This document shows positions 210 through 49,838 of a stretch of DNA of 50,830 bases, one piece after another. The stretch is taken from positions 1-50,830 of the forward strand of contig JALUZF010000258.1 in assembly GCA_027012135.1 (NCBI GenBank), read 5' to 3'. The notes beneath the pieces were generated by a model, which worked only from the letters and a program-made list of their open reading frames with translations, was not told where the DNA came from and made no database searches. The number at the start of each line of letters is the position of its first letter. Positions within the stretch are counted from its first letter, which is position 1. Source of the DNA: Gammaproteobacteria bacterium (GTDB lineage Bacteria > Pseudomonadota > Gammaproteobacteria > GRL18). A program made the translations under genes and the position numbers.

Positions 210-352
210 AAGAGCAGCGTTGAGCGAAAAAGTATAAAATCCATTTTTCTTCAGTCAAGCAAAACAAAAAATTTTTTGTATTCACTTGAAGACAAATCTT
301 TTTGCTCTGGCTCTTTCTCAACGCTGAACGCTCAGCGCTCAACGCTGCTCTT
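210..352. repeat. 143-bp inverted-repeat element (heptamer family, copy A)
   Basis: The ends form a 17-bp perfect inverted repeat (210-226 and 336-352, AAGAGCAGCGTTGAGCG and its complement). The interior from 231 closely matches the interior of the element at 4381, beginning with AGTATAAAATCCATTTTTC in both. The right part carries the AACGCTC heptamer. It overlaps the last codons and the TGA stop of the leftward ferredoxin gene. It has the size and structure of a MITE or a structured intergenic repeat, and no transposase is nearby. A clear target duplication is not visible. Confidence 0.75.
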
Positions 353-658
353 CAACATCAACCGTTTAACCACTTCCCCTTTAACCAGATGCTGCTCAAT
401 AATATCATCCAGATCTTCCTCATCTACATAAGTATACCAGGTTTCTTCCGGATAGATGACGATAACCGGGCCTTCGCTGCAGCGGCCGAGACAGCCGGCG
501 CTGTTGATTCTTACCAGGCCTTCACCATGGATACCCAGTTCCTTACAACGGTTTTTAACGTATTTGCGCATTTGGCGGGCATTAAAACGCTGGCAGCAGG
601 CGGAACCGTCTTCGCGGTCATTGGTGCAAAAGAATACGTGTCTGGAGTAATAGGACAT
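332..658 (-). CDS. Thioredoxin-like [2Fe-2S] ferredoxin
   Basis: A 108-residue protein of the Shethna-type, thioredoxin-fold [2Fe-2S] ferredoxin family. It is expected to be a soluble cytoplasmic electron carrier; its partner is not known. The cluster ligands are visible as Cys11, Cys22 (Cys21 is adjacent), Cys56 and Cys60 in the motif AGCLGRCSEGP. The start MSYYSRHVFFC is typical for the family. It is divergent from the neighbouring GlcF-like Fe-S protein, so the two may share redox functions (inference). The final residues, KSSVER and the TGA stop, are encoded inside the inverted-repeat element at 210-352, so the native C-terminus has been replaced or trimmed by the repeat. Family assignment is firm; biological role is open. 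Confidence 0.88.
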   Translation of the reverse strand: MSYYSRHVFFCTNDREDGSACCQRFNARQMRKYVKNRCKELGIHGEGLVRINSAGCLGRCSEGPVIVIYPEETWYTYVDEEDLDDIIEQHLVKGEVVKRLMLKSSVER

Positions 659-749: not shown

Positions 750-1922
750 TTGACTGTTCAGAAAACCATTTCTCAGCTGGCTAACCAGTGTGTGCTGTGC
801 GGATTGTGTCTGCCGCATTGTCCTACTTATCAGGTGTTTCATACGGAAAATGAGTCTCCAAGAGGACGAATATCGCTGTTTAAAGCGCTGGCGGACGGTG
901 ATTTACACTTAACGGACGAGCTGTTTGAATCTCTGGATCATTGTCTGGGCTGTCGTGCCTGTGAGCATATGTGTCCTTCTGAAGTGGATTATTCAAAAAT
1001 CAGTGATTTAAGCCGGCAGCAGCTGGCACAGTCGATCCAGATACAGCAGTCTGTTAAACAGAAAGTTGCTGAAACCGTCCTGCAGAAGGCCCCCCTGCGC
1101 TCACTGGCCCGGCTGTCTAACAGGCTTACGGGGCAAAGTTCACTGGAGCAGTACTACCCTGTTGATAATACACTTGGGAAGGTGGCACTGTTTACCGGCT
1201 GTACCGGCGAGTTGTTTGAAACTCAGACGCTGCTGGATGGGATCCGGGTATTAAATGCCTGCGGTTACGAGGTGGTGGTACCTGAAAATCAGCACTGCTG
1301 TGGTGCTATTAAGCGCCGTCAGGGGGATCTGGACGGTATGTATGCACAGATCCATAATAATATTGAAGGCTTTAAACCTTACCTTAAAGATTGTCAGGCC
1401 ATTATCAGTTTAAATAATCACTGTTCCGGACAACTGAAAGAATATGCCCATTTAATGACTGGTTCTGACTGTCATAAGGGTTCTGACAGTCAGGCTATGA
1501 CTGAGCATAGTTTTGATATTATAGCTTTTCTGGCTCAGTCCTTCGAACAGCACAGCCCTGACTTTGTACCGCTTGAGCAGGAAGTTATTCTGCATACTTC
1601 CTGCAGCCTGAAAAATGTCCTGCATGAAGCCCCGCTGCTGGAAAAAGTTCTGGCGGCTATTCCCGAACTGAAAATAAACAGGCTGGATGCAAAGATATGC
1701 TGTGGCGCCGCTGGTAGCTACCGGCTGCGGTATCCGGATATTGCCGGACAGCTGCTGGATAATAAATTACAGCAGATTATGGGATATAATAAGAGTAAGA
1801 TACTGGTTTCTTCCAATCTGGGCTGTTCTCTGCATTATAAGCAGGGGTTGAAAAAACTGGGGCTGAATATTGAGGTGGTGCATCCGGTGGGGTTGTTGGC
1901 GAGGCAGTTGAGGAGCGGTTGA
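750..1922 (+). CDS. glcF: GlcF-like (Fe-S)-binding oxidoreductase subunit
   Basis: A 390-residue protein built like the iron-sulfur subunit of glycolate oxidase: two [4Fe-4S] ferredoxin motifs (CVLCGLCLPHCP near residues 14-25 and CLGCRACEHMCP near 68-79), then two cysteine-rich CCG domains (CCGAIKRRQGD near 188, CCGAAGSYRLRYP near 320). GlcF passes electrons from the flavin subunits GlcD/GlcE to the quinone pool at the membrane. GlcD and GlcE are not in this window, so a related 2-hydroxyacid or lactate dehydrogenase Fe-S subunit is possible. The start is TTG at 750, which places MTVQKTISQLANQCVLC as the N-terminus; no strong ribosome site is seen. The TGA stop (1920-1922) is shared with a TTGAGCG heptamer. 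Of the last 19 codons, 18 end in G or T, unlike the gene body. Confidence 0.85.
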   Translation: MTVQKTISQLANQCVLCGLCLPHCPTYQVFHTENESPRGRISLFKALADGDLHLTDELFESLDHCLGCRACEHMCPSEVDYSKISDLSRQQLAQSIQIQQSVKQKVAETVLQKAPLRSLARLSNRLTGQSSLEQYYPVDNTLGKVALFTGCTGELFETQTLLDGIRVLNACGYEVVVPENQHCCGAIKRRQGDLDGMYAQIHNNIEGFKPYLKDCQAIISLNNHCSGQLKEYAHLMTGSDCHKGSDSQAMTEHSFDIIAFLAQSFEQHSPDFVPLEQEVILHTSCSLKNVLHEAPLLEKVLAAIPELKINRLDAKICCGAAGSYRLRYPDIAGQLLDNKLQQIMGYNKSKILVSSNLGCSLHYKQGLKKLGLNIEVVHPVGLLARQLRSG

Positions 1923-2012
1923 GCGTTGAGAAAGAGCATAGAGTGTTAAGTGTTAAGTGTTAAGTGTTAAGTGTTAAGTGTTAAGTGTTAAGTGTTAAGT
2001 GTTAAGAAAGAG
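1921..2012 (+). repeat. Heptamer array: GAGCGTT plus nine GTGTTAA units
   Basis: One GAGCGTT unit and the joining motif GAGAAAGAGC are followed by nine exact tandem copies of GTGTTAA (1943-2005), then GAAAGAGC again. The array starts inside the glcF stop codon and ends about 35 bp before coq7. There is no inverted right half, so it is a single-orientation copy. TTAAGTG differs from TTGAGCG by two transitions, so the two heptamers probably belong to one family. Confidence 0.9.
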
Positions 2013-2047
2013 CGTAAATGTTTATATGGTTTTGACAAGGGGTTGAT

Positions 2048-4266: not shown

Positions 4267-4371
4267 GAGCGTTGAGCGTTGAGCGTTGAGCGTTGAGCGT
4301 TGAGCGTTGAGCGTTGAGCGTTGAGCGTTGAGCGTTGAGCGTTGAGCGTTGAGCGTTGAGCGTTGAGCGTT
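4267..4371 (+). repeat. Perfect tandem array of 15 GAGCGTT heptamers
   Basis: Fifteen exact head-to-tail copies of GAGCGTT (105 bp), followed by a partial GAGC that runs into the 4381 core. It sits between the convergent stops of fabA and ppdK. The perfect homogeneity suggests recent expansion by slippage or continuing homogenisation. On the reverse strand the array has no stop codons and makes a false open frame of a seven-residue periodic peptide. Confidence 0.97.
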
Positions 4372-4497
4372 GAGCAAAAGAGTATAAAATCCATTTTTCC
4401 TGAGTCAAGCAAAATAGCAAAATATTTTGTATTAATTTAAAGATAAATGTTGCTCCGGGTCTTTCTCTGCGCTCAACGCTCAGCGCTACTCTTCTAA
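4372..4497. repeat. Core and right end of inverted-repeat element (copy B)
   Basis: From 4381 the sequence repeats the interior of the 210-352 element (AGTATAAAATCCATTTTTC, then GTCAAGCAAAA, then the TTTGTATT and TCTTTCTC blocks) with scattered substitutions. It ends in inverted heptamers GCGCTCAACGCTCAGCGCT (4469-4487), which pair with the GAGCGTT array on the left. The right end overlaps the TAG stop of ppdK (4486-4488). Transcribed from either side, it could fold into a large hairpin and act as a terminator for the convergent genes. Confidence 0.8.
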
Positions 4498-7242
4498 GGC
4501 TGCATGCGCCGCCGCCAGTCGTGCGATAGGCACCCGTGGCCCCGAACATGAGACATAGTCCAGCCCAATAGTATGGCAGAACTGGATTGAGTCTGGATGG
4601 CCGCCGTGTTCACCGCAGATGCCTATGGACATATCCTTACGGGTTTCACGGCCCCAGTTAACAGCCAGTTCCATCAGTTTGCCAACGCCTTTTCTATCCA
4701 GCACTTCAAAGGGATTGTCCTGCAAGATACCGCGTTCATTGTATAGCGGCAGGAACTTGTTTTCCGCATCTTCCCGGGAGAATGAGAAGGTAGCCTGGCT
4801 CAGATCATTGGTACCGAAGGAGAAAAATTCTGCCACATCGGCCAGTGACTCTGCCCGCATACAGGCACGCACCACTTCCAGCATAGAGCCGAATTTATAG
4901 TTCACCTTAAGATTATAGGTGCGCTCCACTTCCTCATGAATACTATCAGCAAACTTTTTAATGAACTTCAGTTCCTGTACCGTTGAAACCTGCGGGATCA
5001 TGATCTGGGGGTAAACTTCCATTCCCTTGGCCACACATTCAGCGGCCGCTTCCAGAATGGCGCGGATCTGCATGGAATAGATTTCCGGAAAAGTAATGCC
5101 CAGACGGACACCGCGATGACCCAGCATGGGATTGGTTTCATACAGGGCACGGACTTTTTTCAGCATACTCTGCTTTTTAATAATGGCTTCTTCCACCAGA
5201 TCAGGGTTTACCATAGTTGGCAGGGGAACTTTATCAGTGACCCGGCGTCCCTCTCCGCTTTCAAGCAGGTTCATGGTATTGCACAGGACACTGGCACCGG
5301 CTGCCATTTCATGTAAATGCTGCAGCTGTTCAATTTCTTTCTGTAATTGAGGCTCTGAAGGTAAAAACTCGTGAATGGGCGGATCCAGCAGGCGAATAGT
5401 CACCTTACGTGGTGACATCACCTCAAACAGCCCCTTAAAGTCAGCCCGTTGAATAGGCAGCAGGCGGTTCAGTGCTTCCTGACGCTGCAGTTTGTTTTCG
5501 GCCACAATCATTTCAATCACAATAGGCAGACGTTCAGGATCATTAAACATCCGTTCGGTCCGGCACAGACCAATACCCATAGCACCGTATTTAATGGCCC
5601 TGGCCGCATCGGAAGGGGTATCAGCATTAGCCATAACCTTGAGTCGGGCCAGCTCATCGGCCCAGCTTAACAGGGTATTCAGCTCAGTAGTAAATTCGGC
5701 TTCAACCGTGGCAATTTTGCCCTTATAGACATTGCCGCTGGTGCCGTCAATAGTCAGCCAGTCACCTTCCTTGATCACCAGATCGCCGATATTGGCCTGA
5801 CGCAGATTAATATCCACCTGTATGCCTTCTGCACCCGCTACACATGGCTTACCCATGCCCCGGGCCACAACGGCCGCATGGGACGTTTTACCGCCTCGAC
5901 TGGTCAGAATACCCTGGGAAGCAAAAAAGCCGTGAATATCTTCAGGCTTGGTTTCTTCCCGTAACAGGATCACCTGAAAGCCTTCCTTGCCCAGTTGTTC
6001 TGCTTTATCAGCATCAAATATAGCCATACCACTGGCAGCACCGGGAGAAGCCGGCAGGCCCTGGGCAATGGCCTCAATACGCACATCGGGATCCAGGCGG
6101 GGATAAAGCATCTGTTCCAGATGCTGAGGGTTAATGCGCAACAGAGCCTGTTCTTTAGTAAGCAGTCCTTCACGCTCCATTTCCACGGAGGTTCTGACCA
6201 TTGCCGTGGCATTCATTTTACCGTTACGGGTCTGCAGGCAGTATAAAACACCTCGCTCAATGGTAAATTCAAAGTCCTGAACTTCGCAGTAATGGGTCTC
6301 CAGTCTGGAACGCAGTTCTTCCAGCTGCCGGTATATTTCGGGCATTTCACTGGACAGTTGTTCAATGGGCTTGGGCGTTCTGATCCCGGCCACCACATCT
6401 TCACCCTGGGCATTAGTAAGGTACTCACCGTACAGGCGGTTTTCTCCAGTGCCGGGATTACGGGTAAAGGCTACTCCAGTGGCACAGTCATCACCGCGGT
6501 TGCCGAATACCATGGTCACGATATTGACTGCTGTGCCATTAGCCATTTCCGGGGTGATATTAAATTCACGACGATAATCAATCGCCCGTTTACCCATCCA
6601 GGAATTAAATACGGCTTTAATGGCCAGTTCTAACTGCTCATAAGGATCATCGGGAAATTCTCTGCCGGTCTGCTGTTTAACAATATTAAGAAATTCATCG
6701 CAGACCTGCTGTAAATCATCGGCAGATAAACCAATATCTTCCTGAATACCCTTCTGGGTTTTAATGTCAGCAAAAGCCTCATCAAAGGGTTCATCAGCAA
6801 TACCCAGGGCTACTTTGCCGAATAACTGGATAAAACGTCGATAAGCATCATAGGCAAAGCGGGCATCGCCGGTTTGTTCTATTTCACCTTTCAGCGTGTC
6901 CCGATTAAGCCCCAGGTTTAAAATCGTATCCATCATGCCGGGCATGGACATAGCCGAACCGGAACGTACCGAAACCAGCAGGGGATTATCCGGATCGCCG
7001 AATTTTTTACCGGTTTTCTGTTCCAGCTGCTGCATTTGCTCATGAACTTCAGCCATCAGATTTTCCGGCAGTTCACCATTTTCCGAAGCCAGGTATTGCA
7101 GACAGGTTTCAGTGGTAATAACGAAGCCGGGCGGAACATTAAGACCAATCTGGGTCATTTCACAGAGGTTTGCTCCTTTGCCTCCCAGTAAGGCTTTATT
7201 TTTGCCGTCGCCTTCTTCAAATGCATAGACCTGTTTGTTCAT
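4486..7242 (-). CDS. ppdK: Pyruvate, phosphate dikinase
   Basis: A 918-residue enzyme that interconverts pyruvate + ATP + Pi with PEP + AMP + PPi. Domains in order: an N-terminal nucleotide-binding half (GGKGANLCEMT near 21-30), the swivelling phosphohistidine domain with catalytic His455 in GGKTSHAAVVARGMGKPC, and a C-terminal PEP/pyruvate TIM barrel ending in GICGEHGGHP. His455 coincides with the well-studied clostridial enzyme, and the length is normal. It is the last gene of a leftward glgC-GH57-malQ-ppdK run, which suggests it couples glycogen turnover to PEP supply or gluconeogenesis. The ATG follows AAAGGA. Its 3' end touches the repeat element, but the family C-terminal motif is intact, so only the last few residues could be affected. 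Confidence 0.97.
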   Translation of the reverse strand: MNKQVYAFEEGDGKNKALLGGKGANLCEMTQIGLNVPPGFVITTETCLQYLASENGELPENLMAEVHEQMQQLEQKTGKKFGDPDNPLLVSVRSGSAMSMPGMMDTILNLGLNRDTLKGEIEQTGDARFAYDAYRRFIQLFGKVALGIADEPFDEAFADIKTQKGIQEDIGLSADDLQQVCDEFLNIVKQQTGREFPDDPYEQLELAIKAVFNSWMGKRAIDYRREFNITPEMANGTAVNIVTMVFGNRGDDCATGVAFTRNPGTGENRLYGEYLTNAQGEDVVAGIRTPKPIEQLSSEMPEIYRQLEELRSRLETHYCEVQDFEFTIERGVLYCLQTRNGKMNATAMVRTSVEMEREGLLTKEQALLRINPQHLEQMLYPRLDPDVRIEAIAQGLPASPGAASGMAIFDADKAEQLGKEGFQVILLREETKPEDIHGFFASQGILTSRGGKTSHAAVVARGMGKPCVAGAEGIQVDINLRQANIGDLVIKEGDWLTIDGTSGNVYKGKIATVEAEFTTELNTLLSWADELARLKVMANADTPSDAARAIKYGAMGIGLCRTERMFNDPERLPIVIEMIVAENKLQRQEALNRLLPIQRADFKGLFEVMSPRKVTIRLLDPPIHEFLPSEPQLQKEIEQLQHLHEMAAGASVLCNTMNLLESGEGRRVTDKVPLPTMVNPDLVEEAIIKKQSMLKKVRALYETNPMLGHRGVRLGITFPEIYSMQIRAILEAAAECVAKGMEVYPQIMIPQVSTVQELKFIKKFADSIHEEVERTYNLKVNYKFGSMLEVVRACMRAESLADVAEFFSFGTNDLSQATFSFSREDAENKFLPLYNERGILQDNPFEVLDRKGVGKLMELAVNWGRETRKDMSIGICGEHGGHPDSIQFCHTIGLDYVSCSGPRVPIARLAAAHAALEE

Positions 7243-25735: not shown

Positions 25736-25737
25736 GG

Positions 25738-25776
25738 TTGAGCGTTGAGCGTTGAGCGCTTAACGCTTAACGCTTT
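25738..25776. repeat. Heptamer inverted pair (GAGCGTT / AACGCTT)
   Basis: Two GAGCGTT units run into GAGCG, then CGCTTAACGCTTAACGCTTTC. The right half, read on the minus strand, is TTAAGCG, the intermediate between TTGAGCG and TTAAGTG. The halves pair with G-T wobbles into a long hairpin immediately after ispA. DNA to the left is G/T-rich and DNA to the right is C/A-rich on the plus strand. Confidence 0.85.
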
Positions 25777-34373: not shown

Positions 34374-34413
34374 ACTTAACACTTAACACTTAACACTTAA
34401 CACTTAACACTTA
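34374..34413 (-). repeat. Heptamer array abutting the nadC start (five ACTTAAC units)
   Basis: Five exact ACTTAAC units plus a partial one; on the minus strand this is GTTAAGT, so it faces opposite to the arrays at 1943 and 32897. The array ends 5 bp before the nadC ATG, where a ribosome site would normally be. Confidence 0.92.
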
Positions 34414-46412: not shown

Positions 46413-46430
46413 AGTTCTGAGTCCTGGTAA

Positions 46431-46531
46431 TTGAGCGCTGAGAGTTGAGCGCTGAGAAAGAGCAAAAGCATATAAAGATTTTTATTTTGCTCTGGCTTTT
46501 TCTCAGCGCTCAACTCTCAACGCTCAGCGCT
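46431..46531. repeat. 101-bp inverted-repeat element (heptamer family, copy G)
   Basis: A 20-bp perfect inverted repeat (46440-46459 and 46499-46518, GAGAGTTGAGCGCTGAGAAA and its complement) encloses GAGCAAAA...TTTTGCTC, extending the stem. Outer heptamers GAGCGCT and AACGCTC flank it. The right arm includes the TGA stop of lspA. It is a shorter relative of the copies at 210 and 4372, sharing GCTCTGGCTnTTTCTCA. Plus-strand sequence is G-rich to the left and C-rich to the right. Confidence 0.85.
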
Positions 46532-47029
46532 ATTATTCCTAAAAGCATCAATCACCATCATAACCGCCCCTATACTAATAGCGGTATCGGCAATATTAAA
46601 AGCCGGCCAGTGGATGGTTTTCGTGTCGCTTTGATAGTAAAAATCGAGAAAATCCACTACATAGCCTAAGGTCAGGCGATCCCACAGGTTGCCCAGGGCA
46701 CCGCCTAATATTAAGGACAGGGCAATGGCCAGCCAGCGTTCATGGGGCTGCAGTTTTTTTAGCCAGAAAAAGATAATAGTGCTGACAACAATTGCTACCA
46801 GGGCAAAAAACCAGCGCTGCCAGCCTGATTCATTAGCCAGAAAACTGAAAGCAGCGCCATTGTTGTGGGCCAGGGTCAGATTAAACCAGCCGGGGATCAC
46901 CGGCTGGATTTCATATAACTGGAAATAAGTACTGGCGGCTGCTTTACTGCCCAGGTCAAGGACAATCACCAGAGCCGTCAGCCAGAGCCACTTCAGCCCG
47001 GTTCCCTGGACATTTCCTGGATCAGGCAT
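46517..47029 (-). CDS. lspA: Lipoprotein signal peptidase (signal peptidase II)
   Basis: A 170-residue inner-membrane aspartyl protease that removes signal peptides from prolipoproteins. Four hydrophobic segments; the catalytic Asp pair is in YVVDFLDFY and [11 protein letters not shown], preceded by NNGAAFSF and [12 protein letters not shown] chose ATG 47029, which overlaps the ileS stop region (translational coupling) and gives the usual length; a further ATG at 47059 would add ten residues. The last residues NSAER and the TGA come from the heptamer element, and 20 of the last 23 codons end in G or T. Confidence 0.95.
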
Positions 47030-49838
47030 AATGTCTGACTTCACCTTCTCCGGCCACATTTTCTACGCAGCGACCGCACAGTTCAGGATGCTCAGCATTT
47101 GCACCCACATCTTCACGGTGATGCCAGCAGCGGACACATTTAGGGTATTCCGAGGCTTTGACCACCAGTGCCAGGCCACTGACATCTTCTGCATCTATAG
47201 CATCGGCTGGCTTATCGGCCAGTTTATACAGTTGGGCATAGGAGGTGATCAGGACAAAACGCAGTTCATCTTCCAGTTTTTCCAGGTTTGCCAGCAGCTT
47301 ATTATCACAATACAGATCCACTTCAGCATCCAGTGAAGAACCAATGGTTTTATCCACCCGCAGTTTTTCCATTTCCTTACTGCAGGCAACCCGAACGGCC
47401 AGCACTTTTTGCCAGAAGGCATCGTCCATTTCCTCCTGAATTTCAGGCGGGAAGGCATACCAGCTTTCAAAAAATACCGACTCATCCCGCTCACCGGGGA
47501 TAAAGCCCCAGAGTTCTTCTGCGGTAAAGCTGAGGATGGGTGCAATCCAGCGGGTCATGGCTTCTACAATATGGTACAGCGCCGTCTGTGCGGAACGCCG
47601 TGCAATACTGTCTGGCTGGGTGGTGTACTGACGGTCTTTAATCACATCCAGGTAAAAAGCCCCCAGATCCATGGCGCAGAAGTTATGCACTTTCTGATAC
47701 ACCTGGTGGAAATCGTACTGCTCATAAGCTCCAATAATCTCCTGCTGTAAAAATTCAGCCTTGACCACAATCCAGCGATCCAGCGGCAGCATTTGCTCAA
47801 CATTCAGGCAGTTTTGCGCCGGATCAAAGCCATCCATATTAGCCAGCATAAAACGGGCAGTATTACGGATACGGCGATAGGCATCGGCGGTGCGTTTTAA
47901 AATCTCGTCCGAAACACTGACTTCCCCGGTATAATCAGTAGAAGACACCCATAAGCGCAGAATATCCGCCCCCAGGGTTTTCATGATCTTCTGTGGTGCC
48001 ACTACATTGCCTCTGGATTTGGACATTTTCTTGCCCTGGGCATCCACCACAAAGCCATGGGTCAGCACTTCCTTATAAGGGGCCACATCATTAACCGCTA
48101 CGGAGCTGAGTAATGACGACTGGAACCAGCCGCGATGCTGATCCGAACCTTCCAGGTACAGATCCGCCGGGAACTGCAGTTCTTCCCGCTGCTTAATCAC
48201 ACAGGCATGGGTAACACCGGAGTCAAACCAGACATCCAGGGTGTCACTTACTTTGGTATAGTTCTGCGCATCATCACCCAGTAATTCTGCAGGCTCCAGT
48301 TCAAACCAGGCATCAATGCCTTCCTGTTCAACTTTTTGCGCGACTGTTTCAATTAATGCGTGGGTGTCCGGGTGCAGCTCCTGGGTTTCGTTATGCACAA
48401 ACAGGGCAATGGGTACGCCCCAGGTACGCTGCCGGGAAATACACCAGTCGGGCCGGTTTTCCAGCATGCCCTCAATACGTGCCTGTCCCCACTCGGGCAG
48501 CCAGGTGGTGTGTTTAACCGCATCCAGAGCCAGCTTACGCAGACCATTTTGATCCATACTGATAAACCACTGCGGGGTAGCCCGGAAAATAATGGGTGTC
48601 TTATGACGCCAGCAGTGAGGATAGCTGTGAAACAGATCTTCCTGATGCAGTAAAGCACCTTTTTCTTTGAGCACGTCCAGTACCAGTGGATTAGCCCTGA
48701 ATACATGCTGGCCTTCAAATAACGGCGTACCGCTGACAAAACAGCCATTAGGCCCCACCGGGTTATCCACTTCCAGGTTATACTTCATGCCCACTACATA
48801 GTCTTCCTGACCATGCCCCGGAGCGGTATGCACCGCGCCCGTACCGGAATCAGCGGTCACATGATCACCCAGAATCACAGGCACCTGACGGTCATAGAAA
48901 GGATGCTGCAATAACTGGTTTTCCAGCTGATAGCCCTTACAGCGCCCTGCCACTTCTGACTGTTCTACCCCGTATCGCTGCAGTGCAGATTGATACAGAT
49001 CTTCCGCCAGGATCAACAGTTCTGAACCGGTATCCACCAGTACATAATCAAAATCCGGGTGCAGGGCGACCGCCTGATTGGCCGGCAGAGTCCAGGGGGT
49101 AGTGGTCCAGATCACGGCATTAAGTGGTTTATCCGAATCATCACTGGCATTAAAGACAGCCAGTACCGCTGGTTTGTCCACAGCCGTAAAGCGCACATCA
49201 ATGGCCGGAGAGGTTTTATCTTCGTATTCGACTTCGGCCTCGGCCAGGGCGGAACCGCAGTCAGTACACCAGTGTACCGGCTTGGAGCCTTTATGCAGAT
49301 GGCCCTTATCAATAATTTTACCCAGGGTACGGATAATATTGGCTTCAAAGTCATAGTTCATGGTCAGATATGGATTATCCCAGTCCCCCATAACACCCAG
49401 ACGTATAAAATCGGCTTTCTGTCCAGCCACCTGTTTGGCGGCATATTCACGACAGCCGTTACGGAAGGTTTTTTCATCCACCCTGACACCGGCCTTACCC
49501 AGTTTTTTCTCGACATTCAGTTCAATCGGCAGACCATGACAGTCCCAGCCGGGGATATAAGGCGCATCATAACCGCCCAGGGTCTGGGACTTGATAATAA
49601 TATCTTTAAGGATCTTGTTCACCGCATGGCCGATATGAATATCGCCATTGGCATAGGGAGGGCCGTCATGCAGAATAAATTTAGGTCGGCCGGCCGCTTT
49701 GGCACGCAATTTCTGGTAAATACCGCTGTCTTCCCATTGCTTAAGCATATTGGGCTCACGCTGAGCCAGATTAGCCTTCATGGCAAATTTGGTTTTGGGT
49801 AAATTCAAAGTATCTTTATAGATATTTTGCTTGCTCAC
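47022..49838 (-). CDS. ileS: Isoleucyl-tRNA synthetase
   Basis: A 938-residue class I synthetase charging tRNA-Ile, with the HIGH motif at 68-71 ([10 protein letters not shown]), the editing CP1 domain ([16 protein letters not shown]), the KMSKS motif near 603 ([11 protein letters not shown]), and a C-terminal Zn-binding module (CVRCWHHRE and CGRC). Length is that of the E. coli type. Order ribF-ileS-lspA is conserved. It starts 24 bp after ribF and its stop overlaps lspA. Confidence 0.97.

Follow-up and report, generated by a model that had tools for sequence, protein, structure and literature searches.

What is the small element at positions 210–352 of contig JALUZF010000258.1, and what ties it to the tandem 7-base repeats found around it? 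The window, i.e. the whole stretch of 50,830 bp that was analyzed, is one contig of a 3.9-Mb draft genome in 325 contigs (G000). A preliminary description, made from the letters of the window, saw a dispersed short element with inverted ends that is tied to heptamers and in which array growth is linked to an end. This outline stands. By the tests run, the element is not a MITE but a variant of a class of heptamer-armed cassettes that lacks a protein gene and carries a predicted promoter. In our preferred reading, two inverted heptamer arms lie flush with stop codons and enclose exchangeable cargo; taken as a whole, with all the steps of the mechanism set out below, we give this explanation a probability of roughly one half. 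The elements of the window and their neighbours are the following.

210–352, minus strand (canonical orientation): copy A, made up of an AAGAGC end, a heterogeneous heptamer arm, the core and an array end, with 17-bp perfect ends
227–317, minus strand: core of copy A
210–226, minus strand: promoter-side array end of copy A, very short
316–352, minus strand: heterogeneous arm of copy A, GTTGAGC GCTGAGC GTTCAGC GTTGAGA and then AGAAAGAGCCAGAGC
253–258, minus strand: candidate −35 box of copy A, TTGACT, from the core sequence
231–236, minus strand: candidate −10 box of copy A, TATACT, from the core sequence, with a 16-nt spacer and pointing to 226–210
4271–4375, plus strand: array of copy B, 15 GTTGAGC units, beginning 10 nt past the fabA stop codon
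4377–4465, minus strand: core of copy B, its predicted promoter boxes aimed into the array
4403–4408 and 4381–4386, minus strand: candidate −35 box (TTGACT) and −10 box (TATACT) of copy B, with a 16-nt spacer
4466–4495, minus strand: heterogeneous arm of copy B, at the stop codon of the convergent pyruvate phosphate dikinase gene
4486–7242, minus strand: pyruvate phosphate dikinase gene, the convergent neighbour of copy B
46430–46531, no strand assigned: short hairpin relative without a core, between lspA and the next gene
46430–46459 and 46499–46528: arms of the short hairpin relative
46517–47059, minus strand: lspA, neighbour of the short hairpin
1918–2013, plus strand: heptamer array, GTTGAGC followed by nine GTTAAGT units, with AGAAAGAGC on each side, between a glcF-like gene and coq7
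25737–25771, plus strand: three GTTGAGC units facing GCTTAAC units, 1 nt past the farnesyl diphosphate synthase stop codon
32858–32905, plus strand: three GTTGAGC units with AGAAAGAGC and GTTAAGT units, 1 nt past a stop codon and ahead of a convergent agcS-like gene
34374–34413, minus strand: array of five GTTAAGT units ahead of nadC

The 17-bp perfect inverted ends described for copy A are present at 210–226 and 336–352 (AAGAGCAGCGTTGAGCG), and the core that it was said to share with a second copy, about 90 bp long, recurs at 4377–4465; copies A and B are 85% identical over 62 bp (216–277 and 4366–4427). Copy B does have 15 units, all of them perfect GTTGAGC, but rather than replacing its left end they form an array on the promoter side of the core, where copy A has a very short one. 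The element at 46431–46531 is a shorter relative as proposed, although its perfect inverted repeat (46439–46459 and 46499–46519) measures 21 bp, one base more than the 20 bp first given. The folds predicted for this hairpin (46430–46531) reach −74 and −69 kcal/mol, one per strand. A ferredoxin-like gene (332–658, minus strand) terminates within the arm of copy A, with the C-terminus ...SVER. An Rfam scan of the window gave no match.

The preliminary description depended on the core being found elsewhere in the genome, and this is the case: a 171-bp query has 88 matches in G000, about 12 of them full length and many of the others to the ends. Four of five congeners have full copies (E down to 1e-38) and the fifth has matches to the ends only; the genus as a whole contains more than 40 core copies. 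The contigs with matches (JALVDE, JANELJ, JALTKC, JALSUJ, JALVAL, JAPVVU) are from Gammaproteobacteria MAGs, and the element was absent from the phages and plasmids searched. Chance is excluded because three consecutive GTTNAGY units occur 162 times in G000, against 0 for the reversed control. Contig ends often fall within arrays in these assemblies, which are draft MAGs. Many contigs of G001–G004 terminate inside heptamer arrays (e.g. L036, L073, L077, L085), so that array counts are lower bounds there, and the arrays are probably a cause of part of the fragmentation of these assemblies.

Collection and alignment of the genomic copies, which had been proposed as a check, revealed a shared anatomy (40-copy core alignment, one orientation). 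The first half consists of AAGAGCAGCG, 1–5 heterogeneous heptamers (GYTSAGC), AGAAAGAGCCAGAGCAAAA and about 45 A+T-rich bases, and the second half of TTGACT, 16 bases, TAnnnT, TTTTY, an array (GCTSAAC)n and GCTCTT. The combination TTGRY-N16-TAnnnT is found in 33 of 42 cores and in 0.9% of intergenic windows, i.e. about 90-fold over background. The −10 variants (TATACT, TAAACT, TAAAAT and TACAAT) keep T, A and T at the three most important positions of sigma70 promoters, and the A/T-rich block ahead of the −35 box bears a resemblance to an UP element. In diverged cores, as in G001 and at the fabA junction of G003, most other similarity is gone and both boxes are kept. The core thus described looks like a sigma70 promoter pointing into the array, and on sequence grounds most copies in the genus carry such a predicted promoter, firing outward. 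A start predicted about 7 bases past the −10 box would coincide with the first heptamer, and the RNA made would then consist of the array itself. RNA folding had also been proposed as a check; RNAalifold found no conserved fold in the core, and a structured-RNA reading was dropped. Translation of the arrays was rejected as well, some units placing stops in all frames and others in none.

The likeness to MITEs pointed out in the preliminary description is genuine as far as form goes: copies are dispersed, the inverted ends span at least 17 bp (perfect arms of 17 and 21 bp) and the interior is conserved. Insertion is also suggested by C-termini that the element has rebuilt (SVER, SVQR) and by a junction that is array-free in G005 and carries arrays in G000 and G001 (the glcF-like/coq7 spacer lacks an array in G005 and has a (GTTGAGC) array in G001). 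The copies could then belong to a DDE or HUH transposase that has escaped identification, with heptameric terminal inverted repeats that are fortuitous and arrays that arose by secondary slippage. However, none of 11 bounded copies has a target-site duplication (at least 4 shared flanking bases), and shorter matches occur as in shuffles. There is no consistent transposase either, and the TnpA-REP-type enzyme suggested earlier as a partner comes down to one Y1_Tnp in G000 and none in G002, a 99% complete genome rich in arrays, for which reason a RAYT as driver was rejected. The only ORF found inside such ends is a four-helix-bundle ORF (the transposase search covered Y1). Furthermore, stop-to-stop flush placement at convergent genes is unlike random insertion, and the interior changes while the outer junction stays. 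We consider a MITE unlikely. REP/BIME elements with their RAYT are similar in being extragenic palindromes at gene ends, in their many copies and in their long persistence at the same sites; they differ from the present elements, which show no RAYT dependence (G002 has none) and have heptamer arrays as arms and a predicted promoter in the core.

Placement is strongly biased. Among the 28 core copies with called neighbours, 25 lie between convergent genes, compared with 56 of 418 junctions (13%) in an unselected 451-kb sample of the genome (p 3e-19). Intergenic GYTNAGN arrays start −15 to +40 nt from a same-strand stop codon in 24 of 36 cases, and arrays near stop codons read GTTSAGC on the sense strand of the gene concerned. 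A number of genes terminate within the element, where the heptamers spell SVER or SVQR as their C-termini, and at one junction a C-terminal tail is lost in G000 and G003 and kept in G001 and G005. A location at gene ends and between convergent genes would also suit bidirectional intrinsic terminators grown by slippage, in which case the likeness among copies would stem from selection on hairpins and A/U tracts and the promoter look from A+T-richness. The AAGAGC/GCTCTT and AGAAAGAGC/GCTCTTTCT flanks do resemble A-tract/U-tract stems, long stable folds with short U runs are predicted on both strands, and the heptamers of Xanthomonas also lie near stop codons, paired as inverted repeats (PMC4692102). 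Yet a 90-bp core that is about 80% identical across dozens of unrelated loci needs copying, not convergence, and the enrichment of TTGRY-N16-TAnnnT and the lack of a conserved RNA fold in the core also speak against this reading. As a full account, terminators seem doubtful to us; as a function, termination is compatible with the cassette and the two are not exclusive.

Array growth is one-sided. The longest homogeneous run lies on the predicted-promoter side in 37 of 42 cores (1 reverse, 4 ties), where runs reach 17 units, and the opposite arm never exceeds 3 identical units; the copies were gathered by homology, and this one-sidedness describes the core family rather than all arrays. The earlier proposal that the ends seed array expansion thus applies, in the core family, to one end only, the one downstream of the internal predicted promoter. 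Array growth cannot be due to transcription alone, since some long arrays lack a core; even under loose criteria, 17 of the 47 arrays examined show no match to the promoter.

The repeat unit is a property of the species. Counts of three consecutive GTTGAGC and GTTCAGC units, respectively, are 68 and 34 in G000, 46 and 11 in G001, 2 and 159 in G002, 172 and 62 in G003, and 26 and 229 in G004; G002 and G004 use GTTCAGC, the other three mostly GTTGAGC, also at the same junctions. In G005, AAGTCGN arrays or hairpins occupy junctions that bear GTTSAGC in the others, and the one sister-genus genome has no arrays at the junctions compared. An integron attC core site was rejected on these grounds: GTTGAGC fits GTTRRRY, whereas the units that take its place at the same loci, GTTCAGC and AAGTCGN, break this pattern. 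Descent of the cores locus by locus is not supported. Core distance is 0.192 at orthologous junctions and 0.197 elsewhere. In 42 comparisons, the closest match in the other genome was the orthologous copy 8 times (6.1 expected), the alignment having 92 columns, so that single placements are noisy; synonymous divergence between the species compared is 0.17–0.31. The outer flanks match at one junction where G000 has a promoter core and G003 and G004 have other interiors. Species-specific units and differing interiors at orthologous junctions suggest that cassettes are exchanged in place, and the simplest reading is that interiors and arrays move between loci via shared arms. Covariation of arm and array bases is seen between species and in all 11 copies of G003; within genomes it is weak (32 of 39 matched, 29 expected, p 0.04).

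A protein gene is found within the same arms. In G000 (contig C239), a broken PF05635 four-helix-bundle gene lies between arms identical in kind to those of the noncoding elements, and in G005 (contig C610) a PF05635 gene is open but shortened and has as its arm the sole site with three GTTGAGC units in that genome; these two genomes are the only ones of the genus with such a cassette. The association was therefore tested in other genomes. No PF05635 ORF is present inside the window copies, and the four-helix-bundle cassette is absent from G002–G004, where copies are numerous; the gene thus cannot be needed in trans there now. In the genus the cargo is accordingly nothing (short hairpins), a promoter core, or a four-helix-bundle gene at one locus, and this coding form is the one that is widespread among bacteria.

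We surveyed 398 Pseudomonadota genomes, 58 of which have PF05635, and located 71 loci. A period-7 tandem lies within 130 nt of PF05635 at 44 of these, compared with 1 of 142 control segments 770–900 nt away. Lag-7 identity is 0.351 near the gene and 0.250 far from it, and among the other lags (5, 6, 8, 9, 10, 11) only lag 8 rises above nothing (10 flanks). The flanks are inverted (left against right reverse complement, at least 17/21) at 42 of 71 loci and, when loci are mismatched, at 3 of 71. The arm starts −12 to +40 nt from a stop codon in 34 of the 49 arms toward which a long ORF runs. In random 200-kb samples from six PF05635 genomes there are 0–3 period-7 arrays each; the arm unit is the commonest heptamer in one of the six samples (G167), arrays being too rare there to judge. 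On cyanobacterial plasmids, each of the seven four-helix-bundle genes inspected is accompanied by a period-7 tandem, on one side or both. A Nostoc plasmid has such a gene between the genes for the two ribonucleotide reductase subunits, with GGGAGTA arms in perfect inversion (L338, NZ_CP054697.1 259282–259780). Another lies between cas6 and cas4 (L339, NZ_CP112875.1 46052–46733), where the long arrays on its two sides, (AAAAGCT)n and (AAAAGCC)n, are direct rather than inverted in orientation.

These numbers bear on a further explanation, pure simple-sequence slippage with ectopic gene conversion, in which arrays are neither mobile nor functional and four-helix-bundle cassettes merely use the same neutral gene-end niche. 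Period 7 is indeed the commonest tandem period up to 20 in the 451-kb sample (17 arrays, every one intergenic), and conversion can produce a species-wide unit bias. Inverted pairing at so many four-helix-bundle loci, in genomes where arrays are this rare, argues against it, as do the promoter boxes kept in diverged cores, and we find this explanation very improbable.

The intervening sequence (IVS) of 23S rRNA is the classic home of the four-helix-bundle (S23) protein. In Coxiella burnetii, the inverted stem of the IVS measures 28 bp, and the ORF is preceded by a variable number (two to three) of GACAGAT units in tandem (PMC4990558). The elements of the genus resemble it in their inverted-repeat arms and in a long stem around small cargo, which includes the PF05635 ORF, and inverted, stop-flush heptamer arms are common to them and to the Pseudomonadota four-helix-bundle loci. 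They differ in that the copies are located at gene 3´ ends and not in rRNA, are devoid of an ORF and in several cases have a predicted promoter core; membership of the window elements in the IVS class rests on arms and placement, not on cargo. In the open-access literature, subscription journals being outside the scope of the search, the Coxiella IVS is the only report to link heptamer arms to a four-helix-bundle gene, and we provisionally regard the link between such arms and the IVS protein as new.

The STRR heptanucleotides of cyanobacteria are short tandemly repeated repetitive arrays in intergenic regions, and flanks of this type are found at the plasmid four-helix-bundle genes (seven loci). 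The GGGAATC/GGGGATT repeats of Xanthomonas and Nostoc form intergenic arrays genome-wide that are concentrated, on the sense strand, no more than 50 bp from stop codons. They are often inverted pairs, are transcribed, and were described as G-quadruplex repeats (Rehm et al., PMC4692102). The units seen here (GTTSAGC, GTTAAGT, AAGTCGN) differ in having no G-tract of at least 3 G, and neither core nor cargo was described for GGGAATC/GGGGATT (PMC4692102). Abundant intergenic TAACTGA arrays are found in marine Beggiatoaceae, also gammaproteobacteria, and heptamer arrays in Cyanobacteria and Bacteroidetes (MacGregor, PMC4679880); unlike ours, the TAACTGA repeats lie mostly just upstream of start codons, are almost never inverted and have no core element (PMC4679880).

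Heptamer arrays have so far been reported as separate curiosities with explanations of their own, e.g. quadruplexes or translation control. Similar arms around a four-helix-bundle gene across bacteria suggest that many unexplained 7-base repeats share one origin. Tentatively, and with less confidence than we have in the cassette itself, the scattered heptamers (cyanobacterial STRRs, Xanthomonas GGGAATC and those of this genus) may be arms of one selfish cassette class, the coding form of which, with the four-helix-bundle IVS protein, lands flush with stop codons; the heptamer would be rewritten genome-wide in each lineage, and a protein-free form bearing a promoter would have spread over gene ends here. 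The period-7 arm/PF05635 link and the common stop-flush placement offer a single testable origin and a candidate protein.

The mechanism that we propose for the stop-flush cassette would connect the observed arms, placement, promoter signature, one-sided arrays, species-specific units, differing junction interiors and the arms held in common with the four-helix-bundle cassette. The arms would form a long hairpin at the 3´ end of one or both genes; this may account for the presence of the cassette at gene ends and between convergent genes, where it would be tolerated or of use. Transcription from the core promoter would begin at about the first unit and proceed through the array, yielding an antisense RNA. 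Slippage would add units, to a greater extent on the transcribed side, and interiors and arrays would spread between loci by recombination through shared arms. The noncoding copies may descend from, or once have depended on, a cassette of the four-helix-bundle type. Judged by sequence, the window elements could work like a bidirectional 3´-end hairpin with an antisense promoter. The genus also provides a natural system for the study of repeat expansion, with dozens of arrays built from one unit, many of them downstream of a copy of the same predicted promoter, and a species-wide switch of unit at orthologous sites.

Several minor observations concern the repeats themselves. AAGTCG of G005 (e.g. 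C209, C310, C385), when reversed and uncomplemented, reads GCTGAA, part of the promoter-strand unit of G002 and G004; this is probably a coincidence. Contig C162 of G000 contains a heptamer array of an unrelated unit, TATAACC (6.6 units), placed precisely between two co-directional genes (L150, 4721–4766). Expanded hexamers adjoin a hairpin arm at L122 (2150–2264), L043 (about 206) and L184 (CTGGCTCTGGCTCTGGCTCT, and GAGCTA/GAGCCA runs in G001), and this indicates expansion of a second repeat unit at the AGAAAGAGCC motif. Finally, the hairpin at 25737–25771, located at a co-directional junction, has a predicted energy of −27.5 kcal/mol as sense RNA and −19.6 as antisense RNA. Its arms are of different units (GTTGAGC and GCTTAAC), which in the sense RNA pair only by means of G-U wobbles; this hints that what is kept is pairing of RNA rather than of DNA.
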